Part shown: in pieces, positions 4,547 through 22,350 of the stretch | Numbering within the stretch: position 1 is the first letter of the stretch | How the letters are laid out: each line of letters starts with the position of its first letter | IMG/VR virus record: IMGVR_UViG_3300035698_007895 | Coordinates: 1-23,033 of that record | Length of the DNA stretch: 23,033 nucleotides | Origin: a virus | Direction: 5' to 3' (one strand) | Made by a program: the position numbers and the translations under genes | Notes under the pieces: generated by a model | Told to the model about the DNA's origin: nothing | The model's database searches: none | Seen by the model: only the letters and a program-made list of their open reading frames with translations

Positions 4547-4558
4547 AACCACTTTTAG

Positions 4559-5853: not shown

Positions 5854-5869
5854 TCTCCATTTGTAATAT

Positions 5870-7314: not shown

Positions 7315-7528
7315 AGAATTAATCGAGTCAATTGAACAACTTAGATTATGGTTAAGTATGACACCAAAAGCTAGAGAACTCTATTATGAAGTTGAAGATG
7401 CAATCGAAGAAGCAAAACAAGAAATTCAAGATAAACAAGAACAACTCATTTGGTGGAATTATATTCTACAACAAAATGTTCAACTAATTGGTGAATTTCT
7501 AAATTATCAAAATAAGGATAATATATAA
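7295..7528 (+). CDS. Small coiled-coil protein, 77 aa
   Basis: ATG follows GGGAGAAGAAAA. Residues 1-60 are continuously helical, with heptad-like spacing of Leu/Ile and alternating E/K (IESIEQLRLWLSM, EVEDAIEEAKQEIQDKQEQL), then WWNYIL and a hydrophilic end. This is a probable coiled-coil dimer. The stop overlaps the next ATG as TAATG, so it is co-translated with the helix-turn-helix gene and may form a complex with it. No family recognised. Confidence 0.75.
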   Translation: MKKKPSKELIESIEQLRLWLSMTPKARELYYEVEDAIEEAKQEIQDKQEQLIWWNYILQQNVQLIGEFLNYQNKDNI

Positions 7529-7917
7529 TGGATAAAGAATTTGAAGATAAAATACACACAGAACAATATGAACACTTTGTTGTGGATGAAGAAAAACAAT
7601 CATTTAAGTATCCAACATTCGGAGAAAAGGATAAAGAGTTTGATATAGACAAATTATGGGCAGACAAGGAAGTCACTAAAGTAGTAAAGATTATGTTAAA
7701 GGACTTTATTCATCTATTTGTGCAACTAACACCATTACAACAACAGATTGTGTGTATATTAATCGTGGAACCAGATATCAAATTTAATAAATTGTGTCAT
7801 AAGCTAGACAACAAATCCTCATCGTGGGTACATCGCAATTTACTTAAAATAAACAAATATACAGAATTCTCTTGCCTTATGCCTAATAACGTTGGTACGA
7901 GATTAGTGGACAATTAA
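7528..7917 (+). CDS. Helix-turn-helix protein, possible sigma region-4-like, 129 aa
   Basis: Starts in a TAATG overlap with the preceding gene. The first 60 residues are acidic and probably flexible (EEKQSFKYPTFGEKDKEFDI). Residues 67-108 read LTPLQQQIVCILIVEPDIKF, then a turn and KSSSWVHRNLLKINKY; the L-T/x-x-Q-Q-x-I-x-x-I-L opening and a second helix fit sigma-70 region 4 or a related helix-turn-helix. The stop codon lies within one of the GGACAATT motifs, and TerS follows 71 bp later. Position just before the packaging and head genes suits a late regulator. The region-4 call is tentative; another small helix-turn-helix regulator is also possible. Confidence 0.55.
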   Translation: MDKEFEDKIHTEQYEHFVVDEEKQSFKYPTFGEKDKEFDIDKLWADKEVTKVVKIMLKDFIHLFVQLTPLQQQIVCILIVEPDIKFNKLCHKLDNKSSSWVHRNLLKINKYTEFSCLMPNNVGTRLVDN

Positions 7918-7929
7918 CCTATTATATAA
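7908..7929 (+). promoter_or_regulatory. GGACAATT-N4-TATT motif, copy 1 (before TerS)
   Basis: GGACAATT at 7908-7915, AACC, then TATTATATAA. Its first element overlaps the stop of the previous gene; the next ATG (TerS) is at 7989. One of five related sites, all on the coding strand. Confidence 0.55.
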
Positions 7930-7988
7930 ACTTGAATAAACTACATGGTGAGTCAAAATGTCACACTATTAGATATTAGAAGGAATAT

Positions 7989-8390
7989 ATGAGAACAAAA
8001 GCAACAAAGATAACGAGTAAGCAATTAAAGTTTGCTGAATTAGTGGCACAAGGTATAGATCCTAAAGTAGCTTATGTCGATTGTGGATATAAAGGTGTTA
8101 AGAATGCAGGCAAAAACGCACACAATTTAATGATAAATAGATTTGTTATAGCAGAGATAGATAAGATACAAGCTAAATCAACAGACAGCACAATAGCCTC
8201 TCTAATCGACTGTAAGGCTAAATTAACTGAGATTATGAATGATAAGGATACCGGAAGATTAACAGTGATTAAAGCAATTGACTCCTTAGCGAAATTATCT
8301 TCATGGGAGGTTCAGAAAATAGCATTAAATGTTAATAAGGCTACCTCCGACATGAGTGATGAAGAGCTGTTGTCATTCATAAATGAGTAA
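7989..8390 (+). CDS. terS: Terminase small subunit, 133 aa
   Basis: The N-terminal pattern KITSKQLKFAELVAQGIDPKVAY is typical of Terminase_2-type small subunits (K-Q-x-K-F-x-E...A-x-x-A-Y/AGY), a helix-turn-helix that recognises viral DNA for packaging. The rest (residues 45-133) is a helical assembly region with KAIDSLAKLSSWEVQKI. Length is normal. The gene starts after AGAAGGAATAT and ends 2 bp before the large subunit. In known phages TerS binds pac or cos DNA and hands it to TerL; the packaging site is often within or near terS, which is not visible here as a specific sequence. Confidence 0.85.
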   Translation: MRTKATKITSKQLKFAELVAQGIDPKVAYVDCGYKGVKNAGKNAHNLMINRFVIAEIDKIQAKSTDSTIASLIDCKAKLTEIMNDKDTGRLTVIKAIDSLAKLSSWEVQKIALNVNKATSDMSDEELLSFINE

Positions 8391-8392
8391 AC

Positions 8393-9790
8393 ATGACAAT
8401 ATGTAAGAAAGAAGCAGCACAAGAATTACTTAATAGACGTAAAGCACGTAATCATTTAACAGATTTTTGTAACTATGTTTATCCGAAATATGAGTCCACA
8501 TGGCATACTAAATTAATATGTAACAAATTAGAGGCTGTTGAACGTGGTGAAATCAAACGCCTTATAATTAATATGCCTCCACGTCATTCGAAATCTTTGC
8601 ATGCATCTGTGCTTATGCCTTCATGGTATCTTGGCAGGCATCCAGACAAATTGGTCGTACAAGCAGGATATGCAGCAGATATTGCTCAAAAACAAAGTCA
8701 AGATGCACGAAGAATTGTTACATGTGAACACTATGATAAATTATTTAGTAATTTAACAGCAAAATTAACAAAAGATTTAGATAGTAAAAATAGTGTTAGA
8801 GAGTGGCAAACATATAAGGGTGGTGGATATTATGCTACAGGAGTTGGTGGAGCGTTAGTAGGACGTGGCTGCGATTTACTGCTAATAGACGACCCATTTA
8901 AATCACGAGAAGATGCAAATAGCCACATTAAACGAGATAAAGTAATTGATTGGTTCAAATCAGTGGCATTTACACGTTTAATGCCTAATGCAGCTATAAT
9001 TATCATTAACACAAGATGGCATGTTAATGATTTAGTAGGACAAATTTTAAAAGAAGGTGCAGAAGATTGGGAGATATTATCTTTACCTGCGATCAAAGAA
9101 GATGAATACACCGCATTGTGGCCGGAACGCTATAATGAGGACGATTTAGCTATTATTAAGGAAACGATTGGTTTAAGAGAGTGGTCATCACAATATTTGC
9201 AAGAACCTACAGTTGAAGGTGGTAACAGATTTAAATGTGACACAATTCAAATAGAAAATGAAAATGATTTTCCAAATGTCACGTATTTAAGAGCTTGGGA
9301 TTTAGCTTCAACAACAAAAGAACGAGGCAAAAATGATCCTGATTACACTGTTGGTATGCTTGGTGCTGTTGTCAAAGATAAAAAAGGATTAAATCACTTA
9401 TGGGTGAAACAATGTATCTATGGTCAATGGGAATCACCTAAGCGTAACGATATGATAAAAACAGTTGCTAATAGTGATGGTCCACGGGTTGGTGTTTATA
9501 TAGAAGCATTTGGTGCATATAAAGATGCCTATAATGAGATAAAAAGAGTGTTATCGGGTCGAAATATAGTTAGACCTAGTAGACTATCTGGCGATAAAAC
9601 AGTTAAGGCATCAGGATTAGAACCTATATTTGAGGCAGGAAATGTTCATCTGGCAAAAGGTCCATGGAATGATACATTTATTAAACAATTTATGAATTTT
9701 CCAGACGGTTCACATGATGACGTAGTTGATGCCTGTGCTATTATTTATGGCGAAAGTGCAAAAGCTAAATCATCACTTATGCTATGTTAG
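8393..9790 (+). CDS. terL: Terminase large subunit, 465 aa
   Basis: ATPase motifs are clear: Walker A MPPRHSKS at 61-68, Walker B LLLIDD at 162-167, and the coupling motif NTRWH at 206-210. The C-terminal RNase H-like nuclease has its acidic residues in AWDLA (D303), VYIEA (E371) and SHDDVVDA (D442/D443). It cuts concatemeric DNA and drives it through the portal. Length (465) is typical. The start lies 2 bp after terS; no strong ribosome binding site is seen, so translational coupling is likely. The closest type is the Terminase_6/GpA-like large terminase with a C-terminal nuclease. Confidence 0.95.
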   Translation: MTICKKEAAQELLNRRKARNHLTDFCNYVYPKYESTWHTKLICNKLEAVERGEIKRLIINMPPRHSKSLHASVLMPSWYLGRHPDKLVVQAGYAADIAQKQSQDARRIVTCEHYDKLFSNLTAKLTKDLDSKNSVREWQTYKGGGYYATGVGGALVGRGCDLLLIDDPFKSREDANSHIKRDKVIDWFKSVAFTRLMPNAAIIIINTRWHVNDLVGQILKEGAEDWEILSLPAIKEDEYTALWPERYNEDDLAIIKETIGLREWSSQYLQEPTVEGGNRFKCDTIQIENENDFPNVTYLRAWDLASTTKERGKNDPDYTVGMLGAVVKDKKGLNHLWVKQCIYGQWESPKRNDMIKTVANSDGPRVGVYIEAFGAYKDAYNEIKRVLSGRNIVRPSRLSGDKTVKASGLEPIFEAGNVHLAKGPWNDTFIKQFMNFPDGSHDDVVDACAIIYGESAKAKSSLMLC

Positions 9791-9807
9791 TTTAAAAAGG
9801 AGAAGAA

Positions 9808-11106
9808 ATGTCAGAAGATACAATTAAACTTCTTGTTGAAAGAAAAAACCAGACACTCGAAGAAAGAGAATATCAATTATATATTAATCGCTTAGCATAC
9901 CATGGCGGTAAACCATATATTGACGAACGATTAAGCAGATTTCCAGCAGAGAGTGATATTGATTGGGGAGGCGGAAAAAGAAATGATGGTTCCTCCGTCA
10001 CAGGCAGAAAGGATAAAGCTTATGTTGTGCCTTATCTGGAACGTATTGTAGACAAAATTAACCAATATGTATTCGGCGTAGAACCAACAAGAACTAATAT
10101 CGACGAAGAAATCGAACAAGATATTACGTCACAAGGTAAATCTATAAATGAATTAATGTCTGAAGTATCTTCATTATTAACAGTAAATGGATGGTGTTGG
10201 ATAGGTGTTGACGCTCCGGAATTACCAATAGATACTCAAGTGAGTCAAGTAGAAAAATCACAATTAAAGATTCGTCCATATGCTCAAGTCTATAATGCAG
10301 ACCAAGTTGTGGACTGGTACGTTACTCCTAATGGCAAAATTCAATGGTTAATAACAGAATCAAATGAATATGTTGCATTTAGTCCACTTGAAAAACCATA
10401 TAATCAAATTGTACGAAGATTATGGGAACCGGGACAGGTCACAAAGATAATTGTCAATGATACAGGTGAAGATTTTGTCGTTGAAGTAATAGAATTAAGC
10501 TATAAAGATGCAGTTCCATTCGTATTGGTTGGTACACCTTCGAAAGAACCACATATGTTTGACTCATTGGAATCTATTAATCGAGCAATATTAGACCTTA
10601 GTTCAGCAAACTTTGCTAATTACTATAATTGTGTTTATCCTCAAATGTATTTACCTGCGTCTGTATTAGATATGGTTATGAGTACATATTCAGTAACAGC
10701 AGAAACAGCCACAACTATGATAAAAGGATTTAGTTATCCTATTTTGTTGAGTGAAACAGACCAAACACCGGGTTATCTCATGCCTGATGCCAATTCCATC
10801 GGCACAATGAGAACAGAAATGGATGCACTTAAGAACGAATTATTTGAATCTACTGGTATGTTATTGCGAAAAGAAGGCAATGCAGTAGAATCCGCAGAAG
10901 CAAAAGCATTCGATAATCTTGATTTAAACATGCTTATTCGTGCTCGTTCAAAAAAATTAGAGGATGCAGAGACGAAAATGTCTATTCTGATTAATGGATG
11001 GGACTCAAGCATACCTGTATATGAAGTGGAATATAACAAAGAAATGAATTCGGCAGAAGAAGCAGTAGATATTGCTGAGGATATTAAAGATATTGTTATG
11101 GAGTAA
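9808..11106 (+). CDS. Portal protein, 432 aa
   Basis: Follows TerL by 17 bp with AAAAAGGAGAAGAA before the ATG. The N-terminus (LVERKNQTLEEREYQLYINR) is helical with an aromatic G-G-K-P-Y-I segment, then a wing-like region with VNGWCWIGVDAP (about 127-138) and a central beta part. The stretch VPFVLVG...MFDSLESINRAILDLSSANFANYYN (about 237-270) resembles the crown/clip boundary of many SPP1- or DUF4055-like portals. The acidic C-terminus (EEAVDIAEDIKDIVME) ends the helical region. Portals form the dodecamer at the head vertex, receive DNA from terminase and connect to the tail. Family call is firm in function, softer in subfamily. Confidence 0.85.
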   Translation: MSEDTIKLLVERKNQTLEEREYQLYINRLAYHGGKPYIDERLSRFPAESDIDWGGGKRNDGSSVTGRKDKAYVVPYLERIVDKINQYVFGVEPTRTNIDEEIEQDITSQGKSINELMSEVSSLLTVNGWCWIGVDAPELPIDTQVSQVEKSQLKIRPYAQVYNADQVVDWYVTPNGKIQWLITESNEYVAFSPLEKPYNQIVRRLWEPGQVTKIIVNDTGEDFVVEVIELSYKDAVPFVLVGTPSKEPHMFDSLESINRAILDLSSANFANYYNCVYPQMYLPASVLDMVMSTYSVTAETATTMIKGFSYPILLSETDQTPGYLMPDANSIGTMRTEMDALKNELFESTGMLLRKEGNAVESAEAKAFDNLDLNMLIRARSKKLEDAETKMSILINGWDSSIPVYEVEYNKEMNSAEEAVDIAEDIKDIVME

Positions 11107-11128
11107 GGACAATTTGTCTAATAGTGAA
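11107..11128 (+). promoter_or_regulatory. GGACAATT-N4-TAATAG motif, copy 2
   Basis: GGACAATT at 11107-11114 begins immediately after the portal stop, then TGTC and TAATAGTGAA. The next ATG is at 11170. Confidence 0.5.
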
Positions 11129-11169
11129 CGTTAACAAGAGAGAGAGTTAATTAACAAAAAGGAACAATT

Positions 11170-12018
11170 ATGAGTGATATGAAGAATCAATACAAGCTTA
11201 CAGTGCCAGTAGGGTCAACAGACCTAACATTTGATACCGCTATTTCTGGATGGCTAGACATTGTACATTGGCATTTTGCAGCAGATGTCAGCGGATTAAT
11301 TGGTATGCAGATAAAGCGTACAGATGGCAATTATATGGTTATTGCTAATGATACTGCCGCAACTGAGTCGGAAATGATTTGGCAAGGAAATTATTTTGTC
11401 AATAATAACGACATCGTTCGATTTAATAACGATACAGGTGAAGAAGCAACAGTTTATATCACAATTGGATATGAATTAGCAGGTACTGGAGCATGGACGG
11501 GATTTGCAGGTGGTGCAGGAGATGACTCAAGTTCATCTAGTTCCGTTGACAGTTCAAGTTCATCTAGTTCAAGTTCCGAAAGTACACAGAGTTCATCTAG
11601 TTCGTCTAGTCAGAGCAACTCCAGTTCATCGAGTTCAAAGGATAGTTCCTCAAGTTCTAGTTCTGTCGGCTATAGTTCCTCCAGTTCTAGTGTTGGAAAC
11701 AGTTCTAGTTCTAGTTCTGTAGATAGTTCATCTAGTTCAAGTGTGTCATATACAGAGTGTAATGACGAATATGTTGCTACTCTATTCCCATCGGGTGACC
11801 CTAGTATCAATGATACTTATACTACTGCTGGAATATATAATGGTGCTAGCTACTATGCAGGAACGGATTATTACTTATTCTTAGCTAATACAAACCCTGA
11901 TTATTGGGCTATTTCTGGAGATGTTGGTGACCCCTCAAATCAATGGGTAACATCTAAGGATACGTCTGGTGGATGTCCTAATGGAGCATATGTTGGTGCC
12001 GTTGGTACAGTTACCTAA
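11170..12018 (+). CDS. Virion-associated protein with polyserine linker, 282 aa
   Basis: Three parts: residues 1-112, probably beta-rich (KLTVPVGSTDLTFD, HWHFAADV, MQIKRTDGNYMV, EEATVYITIGYEL); residues about 119-193, a linker of more than 50 serines broken by VD, ES, TQ, KD, VG; and residues 194-282, a tyrosine/tryptophan-rich domain (IYNGASYYAG, ANTNPDYWAISG, SGGCPNG). The serine codons mix AGT, AGC, TCA, TCT, TCC and TCG, so the serine content is kept at protein level. Position between portal and scaffold suggests a head-decorating or head-fibre protein presenting its C-terminal domain on a flexible stalk, perhaps binding a glycan or a host-associated ligand. That is inference; no family is recognised. 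Ribosome binding site AAGGA, 6 nt from ATG. Confidence 0.75.
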   Translation: MSDMKNQYKLTVPVGSTDLTFDTAISGWLDIVHWHFAADVSGLIGMQIKRTDGNYMVIANDTAATESEMIWQGNYFVNNNDIVRFNNDTGEEATVYITIGYELAGTGAWTGFAGGAGDDSSSSSSVDSSSSSSSSSESTQSSSSSSSQSNSSSSSSKDSSSSSSSVGYSSSSSSVGNSSSSSSVDSSSSSSVSYTECNDEYVATLFPSGDPSINDTYTTAGIYNGASYYAGTDYYLFLANTNPDYWAISGDVGDPSNQWVTSKDTSGGCPNGAYVGAVGTVT

Positions 12019-12039
12019 TAGAAATTTTTAAAGAAGCAT

Positions 12040-12084
12040 CTATAGCTACAATTGACATGAGAGTGGACAATTGTAGCTATAGTA
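12040..12084 (+). promoter_or_regulatory. GGACAATT motif copy 3 inside a 15-bp inverted repeat
   Basis: The 15-mer at 12040-12054 is the exact complement of 12068-12082, with a 13-nt loop. The right arm carries most of the motif GGACAATT (12065-12072), GTAG, C, TATAGTA (12078-12084). The hairpin has no T-run, so it is not an ordinary terminator; it lies 22 bp after the polyserine gene and 100 bp before the scaffold gene. The left arm read on the other strand carries TGTCAATT and CTATAG, so the site is nearly symmetrical. Confidence 0.6.
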
Positions 12085-12187
12085 GAGATGGTATACATAA
12101 TACCGAATTAAATTATGTGATTGGTTACTACAACCGTTGATAGTAGTGTATGGTTTGGTTATACCGTAAATAATTGGGAGGCTAAGA
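12085..12187 (+). other. Leader of the scaffold-coat genes, no gene seen
   Basis: About 100 nt between the hairpin and the scaffold ATG. It contains small complementary stretches (GGTAT...ATACC near 12089-12103; CTAC...GTAG near 12129-12148) and a strong GGGAGG before ATG. It may be a structured 5' leader helping high expression. No open frame is supported. Confidence 0.35.
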
Positions 12188-12823
12188 ATGGCAATCGAAG
12201 AGATTATGGCAAAGTTGCAAGAAGCTGGATTGACTGAGGGAGAAATCAAAGAACTTCAAGGTGTCAAAGAAGATACTACGGAGGACACTGATAGGGACAA
12301 TAAAGCTTTAAAAGATGAAAGAGCTGCGAAAGCACGTATTTTATCCGAAAAGAAGGCTGCCGTTCAAAGGCAACAAGAGCTTGAAGATGAACTTGAAGCG
12401 ATTAAATCAAAGGATATGAGTGAGGTTGAAAAACTAAACCGAGAATTTGAGAAGTCACAGACAGCAAATCAGAAAGCTTTAGAAGATTATAAAATACTTC
12501 AATCCCAACATGAAGCTACAGTCAAGAATTATAATCTAGAGAAAATTGGTTCCACAATTAAGTTTATGGATACAATACCTCAAGATTTACGAAGAATTGC
12601 GATTGAGAAATCATTTGGCGAAGTAGATATATCTGATGATGCTGCCGTTACATTAGCTAAAGAAACATTTACTACTCAATATAAGAGTATTCTTGCTTCT
12701 GAAGATACTGCTAAAGGTTCTGGTTCTTCTGTTGGAGATTCCACAATTAATAGCACTAAAACTCCTGACAAAATGACCGTTGATGAAAGAGCTAAATATT
12801 TGTCCGATCACAAATTGAATTAA
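12188..12823 (+). CDS. Capsid scaffolding protein, 211 aa
   Basis: Residues 35-115 form a long charged coiled coil rich in E, K and Q (KDERAAKARILSEKKAAVQR, EVEKLNREFEKSQ), then a helical region (QDLRRIAIEKSFGEVD) and a Gly/Ser-rich linker, ending in a basic segment (KMTVDERAKYLSDHKLN). Small acidic coiled-coil proteins directly upstream of a coat gene are the usual scaffold arrangement; scaffold guides coat assembly and leaves or is cut before packaging. GGGAGG precedes the ATG. 33 bp separate it from the coat gene. It may include a protease cleavage region, but no protease is seen nearby. Confidence 0.82.
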   Translation: MAIEEIMAKLQEAGLTEGEIKELQGVKEDTTEDTDRDNKALKDERAAKARILSEKKAAVQRQQELEDELEAIKSKDMSEVEKLNREFEKSQTANQKALEDYKILQSQHEATVKNYNLEKIGSTIKFMDTIPQDLRRIAIEKSFGEVDISDDAAVTLAKETFTTQYKSILASEDTAKGSGSSVGDSTINSTKTPDKMTVDERAKYLSDHKLN

Positions 12824-12856
12824 ATCGGACACAAACTATAAAAAAGGAAACACATT

Positions 12857-13987
12857 ATGCCTAACACATTTGTAACAACGGATTTAGTAGCACGCGATGC
12901 TTCTATTATCCTTGCAAATAACCTAGTGATGGCTAACTTAGTTAACCGTAACTATGAATCTAAATTCGCAAACAAGATCGGTGATACTGTTTCGATTAAG
13001 GTTCCGCCTACGCAAACCGCACGTGATTTTATTGATGACAGTTCTTCTGTTACTGATAATGAAATCACTGAGTCTAGTGTTGATTTGGAATTAACCGAAC
13101 AGCCATATGTCGCACACACACTTACCTCCGAAGAGAAGTCGCTTGAATTAGATGACTTTAATGAAGTTGTAACGAAACCTGCTGTATATGCAATTCGTAA
13201 TGCCATTGATGAATATCTTATCGAAGTCGCTGCTGCTGGTTTTGCAATTAACTATGCTGGTGGAGAAGGTTCTGCTCCTAGTACTGTCGCTCATTTGATT
13301 GCTGGACGTAAAGTTCTTCAGGATAATGGTTGTCCTCTTGAAATGAGAGTTGGTATTCTTGACACTACTGCTGAAGCTTCTATGCTTTCACTTGACCAAT
13401 TCACATCTGCTGATTATGGTCCCGGTAATCCTAGAGCACTACAAGAAGCTGCATTAGGTCGCAAATATGGAATAGACTTCTATACTGACCAGAATGTTGG
13501 TACGCTTACACGTGGTGATGTAGCCGAAGCAACTAATCTTGCTGCTGCTACCGTTGCTGCTGCTACCTCGCTTTCTATGGATGACGCTGGTGGAACTTCT
13601 GTTGGTACTATGTATCGTGGTTCTAGATTCGTAATGGCTGGTGATACTCAGGTTTATACATTGACTGCTGATTCTACCGCTGCTGCGGGTGAATTTGCTA
13701 TGTCTGTAAGTCCTGCTATTACTGGTATTATCGTTGATAATGCTGCAATTACGTGGCAAACAGCGAGCAAAGAGAACGTGCTATTCACTCGTAATGCAAT
13801 GGCTGGTGCTATCGTAGCTCCTGCTCCTCTTGCTATCGGTTCGAGCGTTGCTTTCTACAATGGTGTTGGAATTCGTGTTTCCATGAGTTCTAGTACTGCT
13901 TCATTGAGCGATCAGATTGTATTTGATACGTTCCTTGGTGGACAGATTGTTGAAGCTGATGGTGGATGCGTCGTTGGCGGAGTTTAA
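12857..13987 (+). CDS. Major capsid protein, P22 coat-like HK97 fold, 376 aa
   Basis: N-terminal pattern PNTFVTTDLVARDASIILAN, then NLVNRNYESKF and KIGDTVSIKVPP, matches the P22 coat/Gp5-like class of HK97-fold capsid proteins. Two long helices with INYAGGEG follow. Residues about 217-301 form an extra, Ala/Thr/Ser-rich domain (DVAEATNLAAATVAAATSLS, MAGDTQVYTLTADS, SPAITGIIVD) placed as the I-domain of P22-type coats. The end (VGIRVSMSSSTASLSDQIVFD) returns to the core. The gene uses GCT and TCT far more than its neighbours, which fits a highly expressed gene. AAAAAGGAAACACATT precedes the ATG. A terminator follows. Confidence 0.85.
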   Translation: MPNTFVTTDLVARDASIILANNLVMANLVNRNYESKFANKIGDTVSIKVPPTQTARDFIDDSSSVTDNEITESSVDLELTEQPYVAHTLTSEEKSLELDDFNEVVTKPAVYAIRNAIDEYLIEVAAAGFAINYAGGEGSAPSTVAHLIAGRKVLQDNGCPLEMRVGILDTTAEASMLSLDQFTSADYGPGNPRALQEAALGRKYGIDFYTDQNVGTLTRGDVAEATNLAAATVAAATSLSMDDAGGTSVGTMYRGSRFVMAGDTQVYTLTADSTAAAGEFAMSVSPAITGIIVDNAAITWQTASKENVLFTRNAMAGAIVAPAPLAIGSSVAFYNGVGIRVSMSSSTASLSDQIVFDTFLGGQIVEADGGCVVGGV

Positions 13988-14021
13988 GCTTAATTAACTT
14001 AATTGTTAGTTAAAACAATTC

Positions 14022-14065
14022 AAGGGAGCGAGTGAGGTCATACTCGCTCGTTCCCTTTCTTTTTA
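14022..14065 (+). terminator. Rho-independent terminator after the major capsid gene
   Basis: GAGCGAGT (14026-14033) pairs with ACTCGCTC (14042-14049) over an 8-nt loop, with AAGG and CCTT extending the stem across a 4-nt bulge, followed by TTTCTTTTT. It is a GC-rich stem with a T-run, 38 bp after the coat stop. It should reduce expression of downstream joining genes relative to coat. Confidence 0.82.
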
Positions 14066-14075
14066 AGGATATAAC

Positions 14076-14222
14076 ATGAGAAAACACACAGAAACCATTA
14101 TTAAAGATGGAGTTGTTCTAAGAATACCAGTCTCTCTTGTCAGTGAATTTGAAAGAAACGCATGGAGTAAATATGATAATTTACCAAAAGTAAATGGTAA
14201 GTCACATAAGTTCAAAAAATAA
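14076..14222 (+). CDS. Small protein, 48 aa
   Basis: ATG at 14076 follows TTTAAGGATATAAC; TAA at 14220-14222. The product (MRKHTETIIKDGVVLRIPVS LVSEF..., split here for reading) is basic, has one short beta-like hydrophobic stretch (VVLRIPVSLV), and ends KSHKFKK. No family recognised. Between the coat terminator and the connector gene, it could be a short head protein; its codon use and the downstream ribosome binding site support it being real. Confidence 0.6.
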   Translation: MRKHTETIIKDGVVLRIPVSLVSEFERNAWSKYDNLPKVNGKSHKFKK

Positions 14223-14233
14223 GGAGAGTTAAT

Positions 14234-14620
14234 ATGGCATATACGTCAACACTGCAAGATTGCGATGAATACTTTTATCCTAATAACCATTTAAATAGCT
14301 ATGATTGGAGAAGTTATGATCCTGATGTACAAAATGCAGCTTTTACTCAAGCAAAAAGAGAATTAGAGGTTTCATTAGGCACATCATTAGTAGATCCAGA
14401 CGATGATGATGTATATCGCTCTGATTATGCACATTTCGAACAAACACTTTATATTCTTATGAATACAGCACGTCAAGAAGTTGATGGTGTTTCAGATGTT
14501 ATAGATACAGCAGATGAAGAATCAGGCAATAAAAAAGCACCTATTAGTCAAGGTGTGCTTATTAGTCCACAAGCTCAAAGATATTTAGGATTGAATAGAA
14601 TTAAGATGGTTCGAGGATAA
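14234..14620 (+). CDS. Head-tail connector (adaptor-like) protein, 128 aa
   Basis: AAGGAGAG precedes the ATG. The product is helical at the N-terminus (QDCDEYFYPNNHLNSYDWR, AFTQAKRELEVSL), an acidic turn (DPDDDDVY), a helix (YAHFEQTLYILMNTAR) and a C-terminal PISQGVLISPQAQRYLG tail. Position after the coat gene and before the HK97-gp10-like gene, with this length and helical content, is typical of the adaptor that docks to the portal (gp6/gp15-type). Sequence identity to known adaptors cannot be judged here. Confidence 0.6.
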   Translation: MAYTSTLQDCDEYFYPNNHLNSYDWRSYDPDVQNAAFTQAKRELEVSLGTSLVDPDDDDVYRSDYAHFEQTLYILMNTARQEVDGVSDVIDTADEESGNKKAPISQGVLISPQAQRYLGLNRIKMVRG

Positions 14621-14647
14621 CCATCTAATCGCCAAAATATAGAATAA

Positions 14648-14668
14648 GGACAATTCAGGTATAGTAAG
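14648..14668 (+). promoter_or_regulatory. GGACAATT-N4-TATAGTA motif, copy 4
   Basis: GGACAATT 14648-14655, CAGG, TATAGTA 14660-14666. The ATG of the next gene begins at 14669, only 2 nt later, so a promoter here would give a leaderless or near-leaderless message. This copy is the best argument that the motif could instead be something other than a promoter. Confidence 0.45.
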
Positions 14669-15058
14669 ATGATTGATATTAAATTTGACATTAATTTAAA
14701 TAAGATTAATCGGTATCTGAGTGGCATCGGAAAAGCTATAGATAAGCGTTTAAACAAATCAAAAGAAGAAATAGGTAGATTTGTATTAAGAGATGCTAAG
14801 AAGTACGCACCGAAGGAAGATGGGACGCTAGAGCAGTCTATTAGAAGTTCTGTAAGAGGCGATGATATATTATTTTATGTACCACGTTCTTCTAAGGCTG
14901 GCAAATACGCTAAATATAGACATGATGATGGACCACGAACTGATAAAGGTGATATTAGAAAAGGTCCACAAGCAGGTAGCAGATTTATATTTAGAGCGAT
15001 AATGGATAATGAGAAGAAAATTGAAGATGAAATATCAAGTATTTTTAGGAGTTTATAA
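14669..15058 (+). CDS. HK97 gp10-like head-tail joining protein, 129 aa
   Basis: Contains VLRDAKKYAPKEDGTLEQSI, the A-x-x-x-A-P-x-x-x-G-x-L-x-x-S-I signature of HK97 gp10-like neck proteins, followed by a beta stretch (ILFYVPRSSKAGKYAKY) and a helix at the end. Members join head and tail or act as neck/minor tail factors. The start is set by ATG at 14669; a weak AGG lies about 9 nt upstream. The stop overlaps the next ATG in TAATG, so the pair is translationally coupled. Confidence 0.8.
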   Translation: MIDIKFDINLNKINRYLSGIGKAIDKRLNKSKEEIGRFVLRDAKKYAPKEDGTLEQSIRSSVRGDDILFYVPRSSKAGKYAKYRHDDGPRTDKGDIRKGPQAGSRFIFRAIMDNEKKIEDEISSIFRSL

Positions 15059-15540: not shown

Positions 15541-15565
15541 TAGAGGATATAGAGGATAATATATT

Positions 15566-16525
15566 ATGGCAATTACAGGCAAAACAGCTTTAAAGGCATA
15601 CTTTGAAACAGGTGATACTCCCACACAAACTCAATTTGGCGAACTAATAGATGATATGGGTGTTGCTCAAAACGTTACTGGTACATATGATATCAGAGCG
15701 ATGGATGAGGGAGCAACTGGTGGTAACGCTCGTGGAGAAAACTCTGTTGACCTTTGTACTAAAAGGAGTAATGCAGCTTATGTTCCATCTGGAGCATGTT
15801 CTGCCTCTATCGGTGGAGAGAATAACGGTGGGTCAGGAACTCATACAATTTATGGTGGTTCAGGAAATTATGACAATACAGGAAATCATTGTTCTATTGG
15901 CGGAATTGATAACAGTGCTAACGCAGGTAATGGTTGCTCTATTAATGGTAATGGCAATAGTGACAATATGGCTGACGGAAGTCTGATTTGTGGTTATAAT
16001 AACTCTTATAATGCAGGTAGTTATTGTTCTATCTCAGGAATTGATAATAGTTATAATTTTGGTAGTTATTGTTCTGTCTCAGGAAGGAGTGTTACGTCTA
16101 ATACATTAAATTATGCAAGAGTACATGGTGGTGCAGCTAATGCAAGAATAATTGATTTAATTGCTCAAATAGATTCAAGTGGAACAGGAGCAACAGAATT
16201 ACTATTAGGTGGTTCTGGTGGTTTTAGAATTATAATTCCTGACCAAAGTGCATGGAATGTTGATGTAAGATTTGTAGCAAAAACTGCAACAGGTGCAAAT
16301 GCCTCTATTCAAAACTTTACAGGAGTTATTGTACGTGATGGAACAAATACATTATATGCAGCTGGTACATCAGATGGTTCAATAACGACTATAGGTACAA
16401 CTAATGTATCAGCGTTTACCGTGAATAAGGATGATACAAATGAGGCATTACTATTAACTGTAGCATGTAGTTCTGGTACTGTGAGATGTTCGGCAAGGGT
16501 TCAATTAACACAAGTAGACTATTAA
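15566..16525 (+). CDS. Repeat-rich fibre-like protein, 319 aa
   Basis: The N-terminus GKTALKAYFETGDTPTQTQF resembles a short conserved segment at the start of many phage surface proteins. Residues about 80-172 hold about six repeats of 14-15 residues with the pattern x-G-x-x-N-[SD]-x-N-x-G-x-x-C-S-[IV], likened to YadA-like or other beta-roll repeats; most units carry Cys-Ser. The rest (residues 180-319) is a beta-rich C-terminal domain ending RVQLTQVDY. Such proteins often form trimeric fibres or decorating spikes. It lies between the tail terminator and the tail tube, an unusual place for a fibre, so it may decorate the neck or the tail tube. RBS AGAGGATAAT, somewhat distant. Confidence 0.65.
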   Translation: MAITGKTALKAYFETGDTPTQTQFGELIDDMGVAQNVTGTYDIRAMDEGATGGNARGENSVDLCTKRSNAAYVPSGACSASIGGENNGGSGTHTIYGGSGNYDNTGNHCSIGGIDNSANAGNGCSINGNGNSDNMADGSLICGYNNSYNAGSYCSISGIDNSYNFGSYCSVSGRSVTSNTLNYARVHGGAANARIIDLIAQIDSSGTGATELLLGGSGGFRIIIPDQSAWNVDVRFVAKTATGANASIQNFTGVIVRDGTNTLYAAGTSDGSITTIGTTNVSAFTVNKDDTNEALLLTVACSSGTVRCSARVQLTQVDY

Positions 16526-16556
16526 AATATAGGTTTATTTAAAAAGGAGAAATAAA

Positions 16557-17231
16557 ATGGCAGCAAATGCAACAATAGAAGCTAGTGATATTTTTAGTTT
16601 AGGAGGTAGTTTTATTCCACAAAACTCAAATTCGTCAATCGATATGCTTCACGCAAAAATGAAAAAGGCAGATGGAGATTATTCAAAGTTTAGTTTAGTT
16701 TTTAACCAACAAAACAATGTAACGTGTGCATATAAATTTAATGCTGATACTGCTTTAGGTGCAGCATTACCAGAAGTTGGTGAAATTAAAAATGGATATG
16801 TAGTTACAGAAATTTCTGTAGATTCTACTTTTGATGATTATCCTACAATCAATATTACTGGACATGCTCATGCATCTAATACTGACGTTGAAACTAATAC
16901 ATATGCCATATCTGCTACAATACAAACTGCACTTACAGGAGCTATTGGAGCATATGACTTATTGAGTTTAGCTGATGGTAGTTATACGTGTACTACAGCT
17001 TCAACCTATACTCTTGGCGTTAATCACGTTGATGACGCATGTGGAGCAGGTGATCATTGGTATGGTACGAATATCGAAGGCATGGAAACTGTTAATATTA
17101 CTTATATTGGTCAAATTTCAGAAGCAACGATTTCTAGTGGTTATACCATTACTAGCTTCACATTAGACGATAGCAATGAAGCACATGACACATCTTCGAT
17201 TACTGGAGAGAAATTAGTTCTTAGATCATAA
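16557..17231 (+). CDS. Probable major tail tube protein, 224 aa
   Basis: AAAAAGGAGAAATAAA precedes the ATG. The product is beta-rich and uncharged: FSLGGSFIPQNSNSSIDMLH, FSLVFNQQNNVTCAYKF, EISVDSTFDDYPTINITGHA, with an ending that reads ITSFTLDDSNE...GEKLVLRS. The place directly before the frameshifting chaperone gene and the tape measure, with this size, is the standard siphophage slot for the tail tube. The repeated GHAHAS/SATIQT segments could be an added surface domain. Family not recognised directly. Confidence 0.65.
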   Translation: MAANATIEASDIFSLGGSFIPQNSNSSIDMLHAKMKKADGDYSKFSLVFNQQNNVTCAYKFNADTALGAALPEVGEIKNGYVVTEISVDSTFDDYPTINITGHAHASNTDVETNTYAISATIQTALTGAIGAYDLLSLADGSYTCTTASTYTLGVNHVDDACGAGDHWYGTNIEGMETVNITYIGQISEATISSGYTITSFTLDDSNEAHDTSSITGEKLVLRS

Positions 17232-17268
17232 TATACGTGATAGTATATATAATAGAAGGAGTTACATT

Positions 17269-17448
17269 ATGGAGAAACAATCTGTAAGGATGGTTAGGCA
17301 AATATTATCTTCTTTTACACACATGTCAGAAATAGATTCTGAATCTGAAGCTTTAATTTTAGGTGAAATAGAACGTGTTAAAAGCGGATCTAAACCTAAA
17401 AAAAAAGAGGGTGTAGAAGATGCCAAAAGCGAAAAAAAGAGTTCTTAG
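17269..17448 (+). CDS. Tail assembly chaperone-like protein, short product (59 aa)
   Basis: AGAAGGAGTTACATT precedes the ATG. The product is helical (VRMVRQILSSFTHMSEIDSE, ALILGEIERVK) and ends in a lysine/serine-rich tail (KSGSKPKKKEGVEDAKSEKK). It lies between the tail tube and tape measure genes, where siphophage chaperone pairs are encoded, but at 59 residues it is much shorter than typical G-like proteins. Two A-runs fall in its end; a -1 slip at the second (17433-17439) would extend it by 27 residues. Confidence 0.65.
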   Translation: MEKQSVRMVRQILSSFTHMSEIDSESEALILGEIERVKSGSKPKKKEGVEDAKSEKKSS

Positions 17449-17522
17449 CGGCAAAGTTAAAGGCTGAGAAGTTGTTAAACGCCGAGAACGCTTTAAAAGT
17501 GAACAAGAATAAAATAGATTAA
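17269..17522 (+). CDS. Predicted -1 frameshift product, 84 aa
   Basis: After A AAA AAG (17433-17439), reading in the -1 frame gives EFLAAKLKAEKLLNAENALK followed by VNKNKID and TAA at 17520-17522, 8 nt before the next gene. The extension is a strongly helical, Ala/Leu/Lys-rich stretch with codon use like its neighbours, in a space that would otherwise be empty. The product would be residues 1-57 plus 27 new residues. In siphophages the corresponding slip joins the G and T chaperone parts. Efficiency is unknown. Confidence 0.6.
17433..17470 (+). promoter_or_regulatory. Ribosomal -1 frameshift site with downstream stem
   Basis: The heptamer A AAA AAG sits in frame (codons 56-57). UUCUUAGC (17442-17449) can pair with GCUGAGAA (17463-17470), eight pairs with one G-U, over a 13-nt loop. 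The stem starts 2 nt after the heptamer, closer than usual. A run of nine A at 17398-17406 upstream, also in frame, is a second possible slip site into the same -1 frame, which is open from there. Confidence 0.6.
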
Positions 17523-17529
17523 GGGCAAT

Positions 17530-18264
17530 ATGCATATACTTACGAAAGAAGCACTCAAAAGATTTAAAAATGAAGGCATCTTAGTTCAACCTGAAGATGC
17601 TATTGCCCTTAATGATTTGGCAGAAAAAACTTCTAAGGTATCAGATCAGAAGTTATTAAGTCATTCAGGAATTTATTGTGGCAACACAGAAGTATTTCCA
17701 TTGACATTAGGTGCAAAAGTTTGGTTAAAAACAGATGCTCTTCAGTGGTTCGAACATGATGAATATGTCTATAATTTATGCTTATTCTATTCATTTGCTC
17801 ATTCGAGAGATGAAAATGCGTTCAACTTCGATAATGCTAAACAAGCTCGCAAATGTATTATTACGTGGGCTAAAGGCGTAATTGCTACAGAAGAAGAAAT
17901 GTTGAAATTAAGTGAGTTCAATTTAGAGGACAGCAATGAAGCAGATACTCTTCTAAGTGATTTAGTTAAACAAATAACCAACAAACCTGATTATTTGAAT
18001 TTAGTACCAGCACTCAAATACATTAATCATATTGAACGTGTTCAAAAGGATGTAGGAACAACACCTATAATAGCATGGTTGATATCTAATTGTGGACAAA
18101 CCGCACAATATTGGTTATGGGAACATGGTTGGAATGATATTGAAGCTATGATAGATCAAGTTCAAAAACAGAGTTCACCTGATAATTATATAGATTCAAA
18201 AGATCCATCAATAATGGCTATGAAGCATTTTCAGAATAAGATTTTAGAGATAAGGAGTAAATAA
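17530..18264 (+). CDS. Hypothetical tail-assembly protein, 244 aa
   Basis: Starts 8 nt after the end of the frameshifted frame; the stop overlaps the tape measure ATG (TAATG). The product is helical with a central part (SGIYCGNTEVFPLTLGAKVW, then ARKCIITWAKGVIA) and a C-terminal YINHIERVQKDVGTTPIIAW with GQTAQYWLWEHGWND. Its place between the small chaperone and the tape measure and its size suit a second tail-assembly chaperone or a protein that loads the tape measure. No family recognised. Confidence 0.6.
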   Translation: MHILTKEALKRFKNEGILVQPEDAIALNDLAEKTSKVSDQKLLSHSGIYCGNTEVFPLTLGAKVWLKTDALQWFEHDEYVYNLCLFYSFAHSRDENAFNFDNAKQARKCIITWAKGVIATEEEMLKLSEFNLEDSNEADTLLSDLVKQITNKPDYLNLVPALKYINHIERVQKDVGTTPIIAWLISNCGQTAQYWLWEHGWNDIEAMIDQVQKQSSPDNYIDSKDPSIMAMKHFQNKILEIRSK

Positions 18265-19862
18265 TGGCTGCTGACCTAACATTAATTGTAAAAGTATTAA
18301 ATAAAGCAAATAAAGGACTAAGAAAAACACTTAGTTCCTTTAAGAGGTTTGGTACTAATATTAAGTCTATTGCAAAAGGGATGGCTAAGGGAGTTGCTGC
18401 TAGCGTGGCAGGGATGGTTAAGGGAGTTGCTGCTAGCTTGGCTGTTGCAACTGCTGCTATTGTTGCATTTGGTGTTAAAGCAATAAGCTCTGGTTTAAAG
18501 TTTCAAGATATTTCTGCTAAATTTAGGATTGTATTCGGTGCTCTAGCAGACGAATATGAAAAAGTAGCATTAAAAATGGCTAACGCAAATGCTGCTCCCG
18601 TTAAAGCGGTAAAATCAATGATGGCTGATTTCCAAGATTTATTTACTGGTTTTGGTTCTGGTACTAAAGAGGCTGCTATATTAACAGAGCAATTGTCAGA
18701 TCTCGCCTTAGCTTTTAGTGCCATGAACCCAGACAAGAACTTAGGTGATATAGTATTAGCTCTTAAGGGTGCTGCAACGGGCGAATTTGAGGGTGTTAAG
18801 GGGTTGGGCGTAAAATTATCAGCAAAAGATATAGACGCAAAAGCAATTGAAAAATATGGTAAATCGTTCACAATTATGCAGAAGGCTGAAGTTGCATTAG
18901 CTGAAGTTATGAAGCAGTCAAAGGCTGCATATAAATTCAGGGATGCTCAAACAAAATCTGCAAGTTTTCAGTTAAAAAGGATAACGACTGCGTCAAAGAA
19001 CTATACTAATGTAATGGGAGAACAACTAGTCGTAGGTTTAGGGTTAGGTAAAACATTTGATAGTGTAGCTACAGCAATGGAAAATTTCTTAGTAAAGTTA
19101 CAAACATCTAAGGCTGTTCAAATATGGGCAGCAGAAGTTAGGGAGGAATTAGCACCATTAAAAGATATAATAATAGATATGTTTAGTGGTGAAGAAGGTG
19201 CATTTAAAGAAGGGTTTTCAAAGATTGGAGGACTTCTAAAAGATGCTCTTAATAAAGCTTTAAGCGGTGTAGCAGATGCTTTTGGAAGTAAACTTGGTAA
19301 ATCCATTGCCGACGCAATCAAAAAGTCATTGCCTTTTGGTTTTGGAAAAGCGTATGAAACACAAGGCATTCAGGAGGAAACCAAATCAATAGAAGAACAG
19401 GGTAATAAATTAAGAGAAGAAATTAATAGAAGAACTGGAACCGAAGAAGAGAAAATGGTTGAAGTAAAAGAACCACAGTCAAAAACTAGAATATTTGCTG
19501 GCACTCTTGCGAAAGGAATAGCAGGAATTACTCCAGTTGGTTCAATTGTTAAAGCAATTAAGAAAATTAAGAATATAACGTACTCTACAAGAAGGGCGTC
19601 TGAAAATGCAGACGCAATTAACAAAGCTCTAATAAAAAATTCATTAACAACAGATCAAATATCAAAAAATATAGGTAAAACAGTTAATAGTGTTGGAACA
19701 GTTAACAGTTCTTTAATGAATTCTACAACAAAGCAATTAGAAATGAATACACAAATACCTAATACCTCTATGCTTCCTATGCAATTAGAAACACTGAATA
19801 TAATGCAAGCAAATATGGAAGCAAATATATTAACAAGTAAGAATTTAACTGAAACACAATAA
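18264..19862 (+). CDS. Tail tape measure protein, 532 aa
   Basis: Largest gene of the window: helical and Ala/Lys/Gly-rich. The N-terminus has a hydrophobic segment (ASLAVATAAIVAFGVKAI, about residues 57-74). Residues 80-260 contain the FRIVFGALADEYEKVA and GLGVKLSAKDIDAKAIE stretches often seen in tape measures (SAKDI..AIEKYGKS). A basic second half ends with a low-complexity tail rich in Asn/Thr/Met. Using the rule of about 0.15 nm per residue, the tail would be roughly 80 nm. Residues 39-60 are an 11-residue tandem duplicate. Starts in TAATG overlap with the upstream gene, so translation is coupled. Confidence 0.82.
   Translation: MAADLTLIVKVLNKANKGLRKTLSSFKRFGTNIKSIAKGMAKGVAASVAGMVKGVAASLAVATAAIVAFGVKAISSGLKFQDISAKFRIVFGALADEYEKVALKMANANAAPVKAVKSMMADFQDLFTGFGSGTKEAAILTEQLSDLALAFSAMNPDKNLGDIVLALKGAATGEFEGVKGLGVKLSAKDIDAKAIEKYGKSFTIMQKAEVALAEVMKQSKAAYKFRDAQTKSASFQLKRITTASKNYTNVMGEQLVVGLGLGKTFDSVATAMENFLVKLQTSKAVQIWAAEVREELAPLKDIIIDMFSGEEGAFKEGFSKIGGLLKDALNKALSGVADAFGSKLGKSIADAIKKSLPFGFGKAYETQGIQEETKSIEEQGNKLREEINRRTGTEEEKMVEVKEPQSKTRIFAGTLAKGIAGITPVGSIVKAIKKIKNITYSTRRASENADAINKALIKNSLTTDQISKNIGKTVNSVGTVNSSLMNSTTKQLEMNTQIPNTSMLPMQLETLNIMQANMEANILTSKNLTETQ
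18378..18443 (+). repeat. 33-bp tandem duplication in the tape measure gene
   Basis: Two 33-bp units encode GMAKGVAASVA and GMVKGVAASLA, with only a few base differences. The frame is kept. It lengthens the N-terminal hydrophobic region. Confidence 0.8.
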
Positions 19863-19871
19863 GGTAATTTT

Positions 19872-20660
19872 ATGTCATTAAATACTACAAAAGTTGCACC
19901 AACTACTGGCCAACAATTACAAATGTTGACAATGAGAGCTACTATTGGTGAAAATAAAAAATATACTCCAGCAGAGAGAGATGGTACCGAGTTTAAAAAG
20001 TGGAGTTATAAAATGAGTTATCAGCTACAAACGTACACTGATACGGCTGAAATAACCAGTGCTTCATTGGGTTCAATTAATAATGACCAAAGCGTTATAT
20101 CGTGCTCATTTAATGGTTCGGCAGCTATAGAGGTAGAAACACCAGCAGATTTTAGTTTCTGGTTAAATAACACGAGTGGAGCTATTCCTAATGGACCGGC
20201 AGGAGGTAAATTTGCCAGACTGACTAATGGGTATTATTGCGAAGGTGATGATATACACGTATTTGATTGGGATGATAATACAAATCAAGGTAACGCGATT
20301 ACCTTACTTAGTAGTGTTACTGGTTGTGATAATTATATTTTTACTGGAATTCAACAATCCGTTCAGACACGTTCTTTTTCTAGCAAAACATATGTGAGGA
20401 ATTACGCTGACGTTTCAATAGAAGATAAAATTCAAGATGTAACGTCAATATCCAGTAGTGGATTTAATGGACTAATTCATAGAGTGGGTTCTCTAACGGG
20501 GTCTATAAATGGTGGTGCTGCATTTACCATTAATTCAATGACAAATTCTTGGTTCACATTGGTACAACAGAGTATAGCACCACTAAATGTCGCAGGAAGT
20601 AGATTTATTAAAGATAGAAGAGTATATAGGTCAATTGGTGCATGGCAACTTATAGACTAA
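19872..20660 (+). CDS. Hypothetical tail protein, 262 aa
   Basis: Starts 9 bp after the tape measure stop, with a weak AAGGTAATTTT site. The product is beta-rich and neutral: QLQTYTDTAEITSASLG, SVISCSFNGSAAIEVETPAD, GGKFARLTNGYYCEGDDIHV, and RSFSSKTYVRNYADVSIED, ending in KDRRVYRSIGAWQLID. Genes just after the tape measure usually make the distal tail or baseplate hub; this one would fit as a distal-tail-like protein, but I see no diagnostic motif. Confidence 0.55.
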   Translation: MSLNTTKVAPTTGQQLQMLTMRATIGENKKYTPAERDGTEFKKWSYKMSYQLQTYTDTAEITSASLGSINNDQSVISCSFNGSAAIEVETPADFSFWLNNTSGAIPNGPAGGKFARLTNGYYCEGDDIHVFDWDDNTNQGNAITLLSSVTGCDNYIFTGIQQSVQTRSFSSKTYVRNYADVSIEDKIQDVTSISSSGFNGLIHRVGSLTGSINGGAAFTINSMTNSWFTLVQQSIAPLNVAGSRFIKDRRVYRSIGAWQLID

Positions 20661-20672
20661 TAAGGATTAATT

Positions 20673-21782
20673 ATGGGACAAGATAGTATAGTTTCGGGCG
20701 GCGAATTCAATGCAAGCATGAACAATAATACACGTGGATTACAAGGCACAAGAACTTTAAATGCCATAGGTAATAGCTTAAATATGATGTCTGGTACAGG
20801 AGATGCAACTATTAATCGTGGTATAGATAATGGAATTAATATAGATGTAAAGGGTTTTCCTTGGGAAAAAACCCCTTTTGGGTATACAATTGGTAAAATC
20901 ACTGGTGCTGGTGTCGATAGAGTTATGGATTATTCTTTTGTTACAATAAATAAAGGTGGAATATATTATAACTTGAATGGATTGTTTTCGTTTTCAGCCG
21001 TTGCAGAAGTAGAATTAGAAATAACCGCTGATGCCGGGGATACCTATGATCTTATATACGTAAAATTTGACAACAAATATGGCACCGCAGAAACTATCGT
21101 TTCAAATGGAGTTGATTACGATAGTGCTGTTCTATATTCCAATCCTCTTTACAACTATACACTTTTATATGCGTTTTATAAAACTGACAGTACTGTCCTT
21201 GTTGATATATTTAATTTTGGAGATATTATAATTGATGTGGATAAAAATACGTTTTTTTTGGAGCATTCATTTGGTTATGTAGCTGGATATGATGGAGTTC
21301 TTACAGACCTGTTTATACAATTTGGCATAGTATGGGTAGAGGACAATACGGGTGTAACATATTCTCGTACTGGATATATTATTCCAGCAATAACATTACA
21401 TATTACAAACGATGTCAATATATACCTTAAGTGGGACATATCTTCGAATACTGGAGAAATAGTAGCAGATGTAAGTCTATTAACATCTAATGACAATTAC
21501 TATTATGAACTATTATATGCTGCGGAATTAAAAGATAATAATAACACAGTTCCAGTACAAGAAAAACAGGTCTATATCTCACATATTTATCATAATGGTG
21601 ATATTTATATCCGTAAACATCTTGATCTAAGTAATACTGTTGATGTCGTAATTAATGTTGCTTATAATTTAACTACACATGAATTAACGCAAGAAAAACA
21701 AGAATGTTATTTGGTTGCCGCAAATGTCGCTTCCGTTATAACTGTAATTGATACCGCTGTTGTATGTGAATGCACAGAATAA
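20673..21782 (+). CDS. Hypothetical tail or tail-tip protein, 369 aa
   Basis: ATG follows TAAGGATTAATT. The N-terminal 90 residues are Gly/Asn-rich (GGEFNASMNNNTRGLQGTRT), then a beta-rich body with repeated hydrophobic strands (FSFSAVAEVELEITADAG, DLIYVKFDNKYGTAETIV, NYTLLYAFYK, VYISHIYHNGDIYIRKH). Beta-sandwich content and position suit a baseplate or tail-tip component. No enzyme motif is seen. The C-terminus ends VVCECTE. Confidence 0.55.
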   Translation: MGQDSIVSGGEFNASMNNNTRGLQGTRTLNAIGNSLNMMSGTGDATINRGIDNGINIDVKGFPWEKTPFGYTIGKITGAGVDRVMDYSFVTINKGGIYYNLNGLFSFSAVAEVELEITADAGDTYDLIYVKFDNKYGTAETIVSNGVDYDSAVLYSNPLYNYTLLYAFYKTDSTVLVDIFNFGDIIIDVDKNTFFLEHSFGYVAGYDGVLTDLFIQFGIVWVEDNTGVTYSRTGYIIPAITLHITNDVNIYLKWDISSNTGEIVADVSLLTSNDNYYYELLYAAELKDNNNTVPVQEKQVYISHIYHNGDIYIRKHLDLSNTVDVVINVAYNLTTHELTQEKQECYLVAANVASVITVIDTAVVCECTE

Positions 21783-21794
21783 AGTAGGTATATT

Positions 21795-22325
21795 ATGGCA
21801 GATAATTTAAGATACGATTATGTTACTGACCACTTACTTTATCATAGTGAAAGTGGTCACTTAATTTATTCTTGTGTTGAAACATGTTTATATACAATTA
21901 CGGTTACATTAACGTGGAGTACTTACTCTAACGCTGATTTAGACTTATACACTAAAGTTGGTACAGATGTATGTTGGTTTGGTAATCATCCAATAGCAGG
22001 ATTAAGTTTAAATCATGACGCGAACCCTAATTGTGATTCTACGCCTACACCTCCTGAAATAATTACAGGACAGTTCAATAGCACTGAAACATTCTCTGTG
22101 TGGTATAACCAATATAGTGACTGTGCTGGAGAAACAGTTCCAACAACAACAAAAATAGAAGTGACAAATGATGGTTCACTAAATATATGCGTTAATGGCA
22201 ATCTAATAGCACCTAATAATACGCATACAATTAATTCGTTTGCCTACGCTGGATACAATAATGCAAGTCAACCAGCATATGCAAGTGGTACATCTGTGGT
22301 TGTAACTTGTGAATCGTGCCCATAA
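21795..22325 (+). CDS. Beta-sandwich tail protein, DUF2135-like, 176 aa
   Basis: Residues 31-110 read TITVTLTWSTYSNADLDLYT, then an aromatic CWFGN, SLNHDANPNCDS, and PPEIITGQF...FSVWYNQYSDC. The T-W...A-D-L-D-L-[YH] opening, the N/D-rich middle and the E-x-I...G-x-[YF]-x-V-x-[YV] end resemble DUF2135/YfaP-like beta-sandwich domains, some of which sit on cell surfaces. Eight cysteines are spread over the protein. The C-terminal NITF-like part (ICVNGNLIAPNNTHTINSFA) seems a second domain. It could bind a host glycan or protein at the tail tip. Family call by pattern only. Confidence 0.55.
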   Translation: MADNLRYDYVTDHLLYHSESGHLIYSCVETCLYTITVTLTWSTYSNADLDLYTKVGTDVCWFGNHPIAGLSLNHDANPNCDSTPTPPEIITGQFNSTETFSVWYNQYSDCAGETVPTTTKIEVTNDGSLNICVNGNLIAPNNTHTINSFAYAGYNNASQPAYASGTSVVVTCESCP

Positions 22326-22328
22326 TGA

Positions 22329-22350
22329 GGACAATTCACATATAATATAG
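22329..22350 (+). promoter_or_regulatory. GGACAATT-N4-TATAAT motif, copy 5
   Basis: GGACAATT 22329-22336, CACA, TATAATATAG 22341-22350; begins 3 bp after the stop of the preceding gene. The next ATG is at 22400. This copy has the best -10-like element. Confidence 0.55.

Follow-up and report, generated by a model that had tools for sequence, protein, structure and literature searches.

Five sites in a 23,033-base virus record from an uncultured phage (the whole stretch analyzed, hereafter the window) are probably late promoters, in which a TATA-like block would act as the -10 element and which would be read by the host RNA polymerase together with a small sigma factor that the phage itself encodes. 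Each site joins the 8-mer GGACAATT to a TATA-like block 4 or 5 nt further 3', and the repeated element lies 5' of late or virion genes on the coding strand in all five cases (5:0), as a phage-sigma-dependent late promoter would. A sequence-only reading had proposed a compact, phage-specific promoter here. The sequence evidence supports that proposal: related phages carry a similar element at the corresponding junctions, no -35 box is present, and the window encodes a sigma factor, of which the earlier reading made no mention.

Gene layout and related phages

Leftward small genes occupy positions 1 to 5,056 of the window, and the rightward genes from about 7,990 on encode terminase, portal, scaffold, capsid, and tail proteins (Table 1). 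Annotated phages are distant matches only, with identities of at most 37% for terL and at most 34% for the capsid protein. No close isolate of the lineage was present among 50,697 phage records, and no prophage relative was found in genome contigs with capsid or portal queries. Single-protein terL scans and distant alignments returned mostly unrelated phages; alignments including the relative L012, with iterative scanning of viral contigs, returned the useful ones. L012 (17.6 kb) is syntenic with the window and shares 65% identity in the portal protein and 71% in the capsid protein. L172, L173, and L233 are overlapping contigs of one phage (99 to 100% identical), whose capsid protein is 58% identical to that of the window, and L175, a 33.6-kb record, has a capsid identity of 57%. 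The further relatives are L174, L222, L223, L224, L232, and L234 to L240.

Several features of these records stand apart from the promoter question. In L221 (the L174 record), a capsid gene fragment at 891-1418 recurs inverted at 12891-13418, near both contig ends, which suggests either an invertible end or a palindrome created in assembly. HNH-endonuclease-like genes lie near terS in L224 (3556-4188) and L233 (1117-1797). Long serine-rich repeats occur in the gene after the portal gene (11509-11760 in the window and 8500-9023 in L175) and also in other proteins of the L175 record.

Table 1. Features of the window and of the scaffold leaders of its relatives
Feature	Position	Strand	Remarks
Sigma-70-like promoter candidate, TAGAAA-N16-TATAAT	5201-5228	+	Precedes the sigma gene; rests on a match to the consensus only
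Small sigma factor, 202 aa	5245-5853	+	Pfam PF04542, E=2.6e-7; PHROG 351 sigma factor, E=1.7e-9
Small protein, helix-turn-helix-like fold weakly supported	7528-7917	+	Located close to terS in relatives
Motif copy 1, GGACAATT-aacc-TATTATA	7908-7926	+	Shares bases with the stop codon of gene 7528-7917; precedes terS/terL/portal
Motif copy 2, GGACAATT-tgtc-TAATAGTG	11107-11126	+	Directly 3' of portal stop; upstream of serine-rich gene; matching junction in L175, L172
Inverted repeat, 15 bp, perfect	12040-12082		Arms 12040-12054 and 12068-12082; overlaps motif copy 3
Motif copy 3, GGACAATT-gtagc-TATAGTA	12065-12084	+	Upstream of scaffold/capsid genes; matching junction in L172/L173, L012, L174
Three tandem RNA hairpins, ACCG loops	12094-12178	+	Between copy 3 and scaffold gene
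Intrinsic terminator after major capsid gene	14022-14057	+	Hairpin plus T-run at same place in L012, L173
Motif copy 4, GGACAATT-cagg-TATAGTA	14648-14666	+	ATG of gene 14669-15058 follows after 2 nt; L012 and L172 lack a matching gap
Motif copy 5, GGACAATT-caca-TATAATA	22329-22347	+	Upstream of tail-fibre-like gene 22397; matching junction in L172, L175
Scaffold-leader hairpins, L012	7825-7867
Scaffold-leader hairpins, L173	3958-4010
Scaffold-leader hairpins, L174	9246-9290
Scaffold-leader hairpins, L175	9237-9281
Scaffold-leader hairpins, L222	2201-2250
Scaffold-leader hairpins, L223	6499-6545
Scaffold-leader hairpins, L234	6320-6371
Scaffold-leader hairpins, L236	11432-11478

The repeated element in the window

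All five exact copies of GGACAATT that the sequence-only reading listed are present on the plus strand, with none on the minus strand, and its estimate that few would arise by chance holds: 0.55 to 0.57 copies are expected on the plus strand of the late region under second- and third-order Markov models, and 1.1 at the fourth order. When all 8-mers were compared over the 781 non-coding late bases, which four of the copies overlap, only the ribosome-binding-site word AAAAAGGA tied with GGACAATT. The TATA-like blocks are real as well, matching TATAAT at 5, 4, 5, 5, and 6 of 6 bases in copies 1 to 5, respectively. A match of at least 5/6 at the 4- to 5-nt spacing, found in four of the five copies, has a P value of ~2e-5 against junction positions.

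The motif named earlier, GGACAATT-N4-TATAGTA in five copies, is exact only once (14648), the spacer being 5 nt at copy 3 and the box TAATAG at copy 2. Because box and spacer vary among the copies, a search for the full motif with up to three mismatches showed no enrichment (3 matches versus 1.6 expected). The GGACAATT signal is confined to the exact copies, since allowing one mismatch gave no excess (27 found versus 24.7 expected). A two-block scan, with a matrix built from the same five sites that it then ranked, scored these sites at 18 to 23 bits and the next best, inside terL, at 15.9 bits. Matches internal to terL (window 9139; 16793 in the reversed coordinates of the L175 record) are inside coding sequence and were set aside as chance matches.

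The earlier placement of the copies, always at or just after a stop codon, fits copies 1 (which overlaps the stop), 2, and 5, whereas 47 nt separate copy 3, and 28 nt copy 4, from the preceding gene stop. The closeness of copy 4 to the ATG of gene 14669 was reported correctly; the other four copies lie 63 to 123 nt upstream of a start codon. A location in the 5' regions of late genes, with one copy near a start codon, would also suit signals acting at the RNA level (in processing or translation) rather than at the DNA level. That explanation is very improbable: four copies are too distant for ribosome binding, separate AAGGAG-type sites are present, and inspection found no hairpin common to the five sites.

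Similar elements at matching junctions in related phages

Conservation at matching junctions, to which the sequence-only reading had appealed, was found in a modified form. Position, orientation, compact layout, and a TATA- or TAGTG-like block are kept in at least two relatives, whereas GGACAATT itself is not conserved at the relatives' junctions and is swapped for a lineage-specific block. The upstream block and the spacing of the two blocks differ in each phage (12 to 17 nt from start to start), and the downstream block persists. The recurrence is strong in two relatives and weak in L012 and L174.

These elements were sought with a repeated-word test that assumes no motif, in which the best ungapped word common to two late gaps within one phage is compared with shuffles. 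It replaced a simple EM motif finder, which returned A/T-rich low-complexity solutions when run on all junctions. In the window, the top word was that shared by copies 1 and 5 over 31 nt (26.6 versus a shuffled maximum of 19.9). The top word of L175 was AATGACACA-N8-TATTAGTGATA (its upstream part also written TGACACA), located between the portal and serine-rich genes and before the homologue of gene 22397 (29.2 versus 20.8). In L172/L173 it was GGAG-NN-AATTTAC-NATAGTGTA, at the portal end, between the serine-rich and scaffold genes, and before the homologue of gene 22397 (23.2 and 23.0 versus 21.2); it came out on top only with the bases adjacent to start codons kept and was not the top word in the trimmed first run. 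Additional copies in this phage (L172/L173/L233), every one of them on the coding strand, precede terS and occupy a gap farther downstream; its copy before the gene 22397 homologue is very near the ATG.

L012 carries AGTGTTAA-N9-TATAGTGA at two junctions only, those of terS and scaffold, a pair that is weak alone, with an equally good one in 12% of shuffled sets. In L174, GGAAGATTTATACCATAATGTAAGATGG stands between the scaffold gene and a hairpin resembling a terminator, in register with copy 3 of the window. The same word test on L222, L223, and L224, which are short or distant contigs, gave no clearly significant element of this kind. A match before terS in L175 was not counted; it also fits TTGACA-N18-TATTAT. 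In three phages of the lineage, the window among them, the top word is a compact two-part element, and the matching junctions are those of terS, portal/serine-rich gene, scaffold, and the tail-fibre-like gene. The chance that the relatives' sites fall only on junctions used in the window is ~4e-4, a rough, combined value for patterns picked partly post hoc. The word test lessens this bias in just three of the phages.

Chance recurrence of an 8-mer would accord with the one-mismatch result and with the nonsignificant full 15-base pattern, but it is hardly credible beside the rank of GGACAATT among 8-mers in the late gaps, the repeated-word tests, the P value of the TATA-like block, and the recurrence at matching junctions; the comparative data already contradict it. 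The sites could instead be operators for a phage DNA-binding protein, such as a repressor or a packaging or replication factor, with the TATA-like block incidental. Copy 3 does sit within a perfect inverted repeat, as an operator might, and a helix-turn-helix-like gene lies just 5' of terS. Operators are nonetheless a distinctly improbable explanation, given the uniform orientation, the lack of dyad symmetry at copies 1, 2, 4, and 5, the TATA-like block at fixed spacing in 5/5 copies, and the persistence of precisely that block across relatives. On the opposite strand, the left arm of the 12040-12082 repeat mirrors the CAATTGTAGCTATAG half.

Promoter class and the phage sigma factor

The five sites depart from the common bacterial promoter classes. 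The sequence-only reading had excluded -35/-10 spacing of the sigma-70 type, and indeed none of the five sites has a -35 box: the best TTGACA-like hexamers 15 to 19 nt 5' of the -10 block match at 3, 2, 4, 3, and 3 of 6 positions, the level of random sequence. A sigma-70 promoter was rejected for want of this hexamer at the usual spacing. Sigma-54 (-24/-12) promoters have GG near -24 and require GC at -12. The present sites are similar to them in compact spacing and in GG near -24 but have TA where GC is needed; inspection of the five sites thus did not find GG at -24 combined with GC at -12, and this class was rejected. A T4-type late promoter, with TATAAATA as the sole element, does not describe the blocks TATTATA, TAATAGT, TATAGTA, TATAGTA, and TATAATA.

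The product of gene 5245-5853 contains a sigma-70 region 2 domain (PF04542; 30.8 bits, cut-off 24). Its region 4 has no Pfam match, and the C-terminal 65 residues are predicted to be helical with low confidence; the AlphaFold model as a whole is also of low confidence (mean pLDDT, 45.5). A sigma factor with no recognized region 4 fits a promoter lacking a -35 box. L012 encodes a homologue at the matching place (45% identity over 113 aa), and L174 encodes a different, longer sigma factor. The co-occurrence of sigma gene and element was seen only in the window and L012, because no sigma gene was found on the L172/L173 or L175 contigs, which are fragments. The 7528-7917 protein is a possible partner in promoter reading. 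A sigma factor split into region 2 and region 4 proteins is not claimed, since the sigma model is of low confidence and the fold model of the 7528-7917 protein gave no significant structural match. One L224 gene fuses a helix-turn-helix-like domain of the 7528 type to an endonuclease-like N-terminal part.

The most likely reader of the five sites would be host RNA polymerase carrying this sigma factor. The TATA-like block would be its -10 element, and GGACAATT, ~12 bp upstream (roughly -24 to -17), would provide a lineage-specific second contact in place of the -35 box. Transcription would start ~7 nt past the -10 block and would split the virion genes into overlapping units: terS/terL/portal, the serine-rich gene, scaffold/capsid, the connector and tail genes, and the tail-fibre-like gene. 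For copy 4 the predicted start, 14672, falls on or slightly within the ATG of gene 14669, so only a different start point would allow this copy to promote that gene. As the matching gap is also absent in L012 and L172, copy 4 would either drive genes located farther on or be non-functional.

Promoters they may be and still be read by another phage activity, either an RNA polymerase encoded outside the fragment or an activator working with a host sigma factor. The window is a 23-kb fragment from which other transcription genes may be missing, and single-subunit polymerases, too, would suit a compact promoter in one piece. A search of nine records for a T7-type RNA polymerase gave no match, but neither did the search controls. 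Another activity is nevertheless unlikely, as the window has a sigma gene shortly before the late genes and the downstream block resembles a bacterial -10 element.

Comparison with known late promoters

The late promoters of phiEco32 consist of a single element, tAATGTAtA, with starts 6 to 8 bp downstream, and are attributed to a phage sigma lacking region 4 (PMC8948821). Like its middle/late promoters, which host RNA polymerase reads with the phage sigma gp36 (PMC8948821), the present sites are short, lack a -35 box, precede groups of late genes, and would be read in the same way; the -10-like blocks of L174, CATAATGTAAG and AATAATGTATG, resemble tAATGTAtA. The lineage differs in adding a phage-specific block 12 to 17 nt 5' of the -10-like block, and kinship of the proteins is not claimed. 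In phage 7-11, late promoters of the form GTAAtg-16-aCTA, for sigma gp47, occupy positions similar to those of the related phiEco32 and differ from them in sequence (PMC8948821). They are bipartite like the present sites, are read by a phage sigma, as is proposed here, and keep a relative's positions with a different sequence (PMC8948821), but their spacer of 16 bp is typical of -35/-10 promoters, whereas that of the present lineage is 4 to 9 bp. In T4, late promoters carry TATAAATA at -13 to -6 and depend on gp55, gp33, and gp45; the Aeh1 element and the Aeh1 gp55 have diverged jointly (PMC1524935). Both systems have a TATA-like block, read by a phage sigma in T4 and probably so in the present lineage, and in T4 that block suffices (PMC1524935), with no conserved upstream block, whereas the present element has a near-adjacent one. 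The present element most likely works like the late promoters of phiEco32 and T4 with an upstream block added; descent from neither is claimed.

More tentatively, the lineage may represent a promoter class in which a reduced phage sigma recognizes a -10-like block together with a contact only 4 to 9 bp upstream, possibly aided by a distinct helix-turn-helix protein (the 7528-7917 product, for example). In such a class, each phage would have its own version of the upstream block, whereas the promoter positions would be kept. If so, this compact class would be a natural series for studies of sigma/promoter co-evolution. The five sites would give a late-transcription map for an uncultured phage lineage, and the comparison suggests that promoter positions may stay while the sequence turns over together with the phage sigma.

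A hairpin array before the scaffold gene

Directly 5' of the scaffold gene, the lineage carries an array of 2 to 3 RNA hairpins, spaced ~28 to 35 nt apart, with conserved [A/G]CCG loops and freely varying, fully covarying stems. The scaffold leaders of the window and 11 relatives contain 22 hairpin units versus 0.5 in shuffles. The first helix pairs in 90.5% of cells, and its covariation is 0.61, compared with 0.15 in shuffles and at most 0.11 in slid registers. No Rfam family matched these hairpins. The array is likely a conserved regulatory RNA of the lineage; translational control of the scaffold gene is the natural guess, and capsid assembly might be controlled at this point. In the window, L012, L174, and L173, the hairpins begin ~10 to 30 nt 3' of the -10-like blocks, which agrees with transcription starting there. 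A hairpin of the same CCG loop type, GTAGTTT-GCCGGT-AAACTAC, lies at ~16440-16465 of L012, just before the homologue of gene 22397.

Other repeats in non-coding DNA

A non-coding stretch of ~740 nt (5862-6612), composed of degenerate repeats with a 49-nt period (GAAATAAACTATAGCTACTTTGATTTTATCGAAAAACTCAAGGTACTTT type), separates the sigma gene from the gene that follows it. The non-coding region at 3569-3668 contains four 23-nt iterons (AAAATGAGTAGGTAGTTCTGTAC type), and a non-coding 155-nt direct repeat (3780-3934 and 4392-4546) is 88% identical between its copies; together they form a region that appears origin-like. Different repeated 22-mers occur in the non-coding DNA at ~950-1300 of L012.
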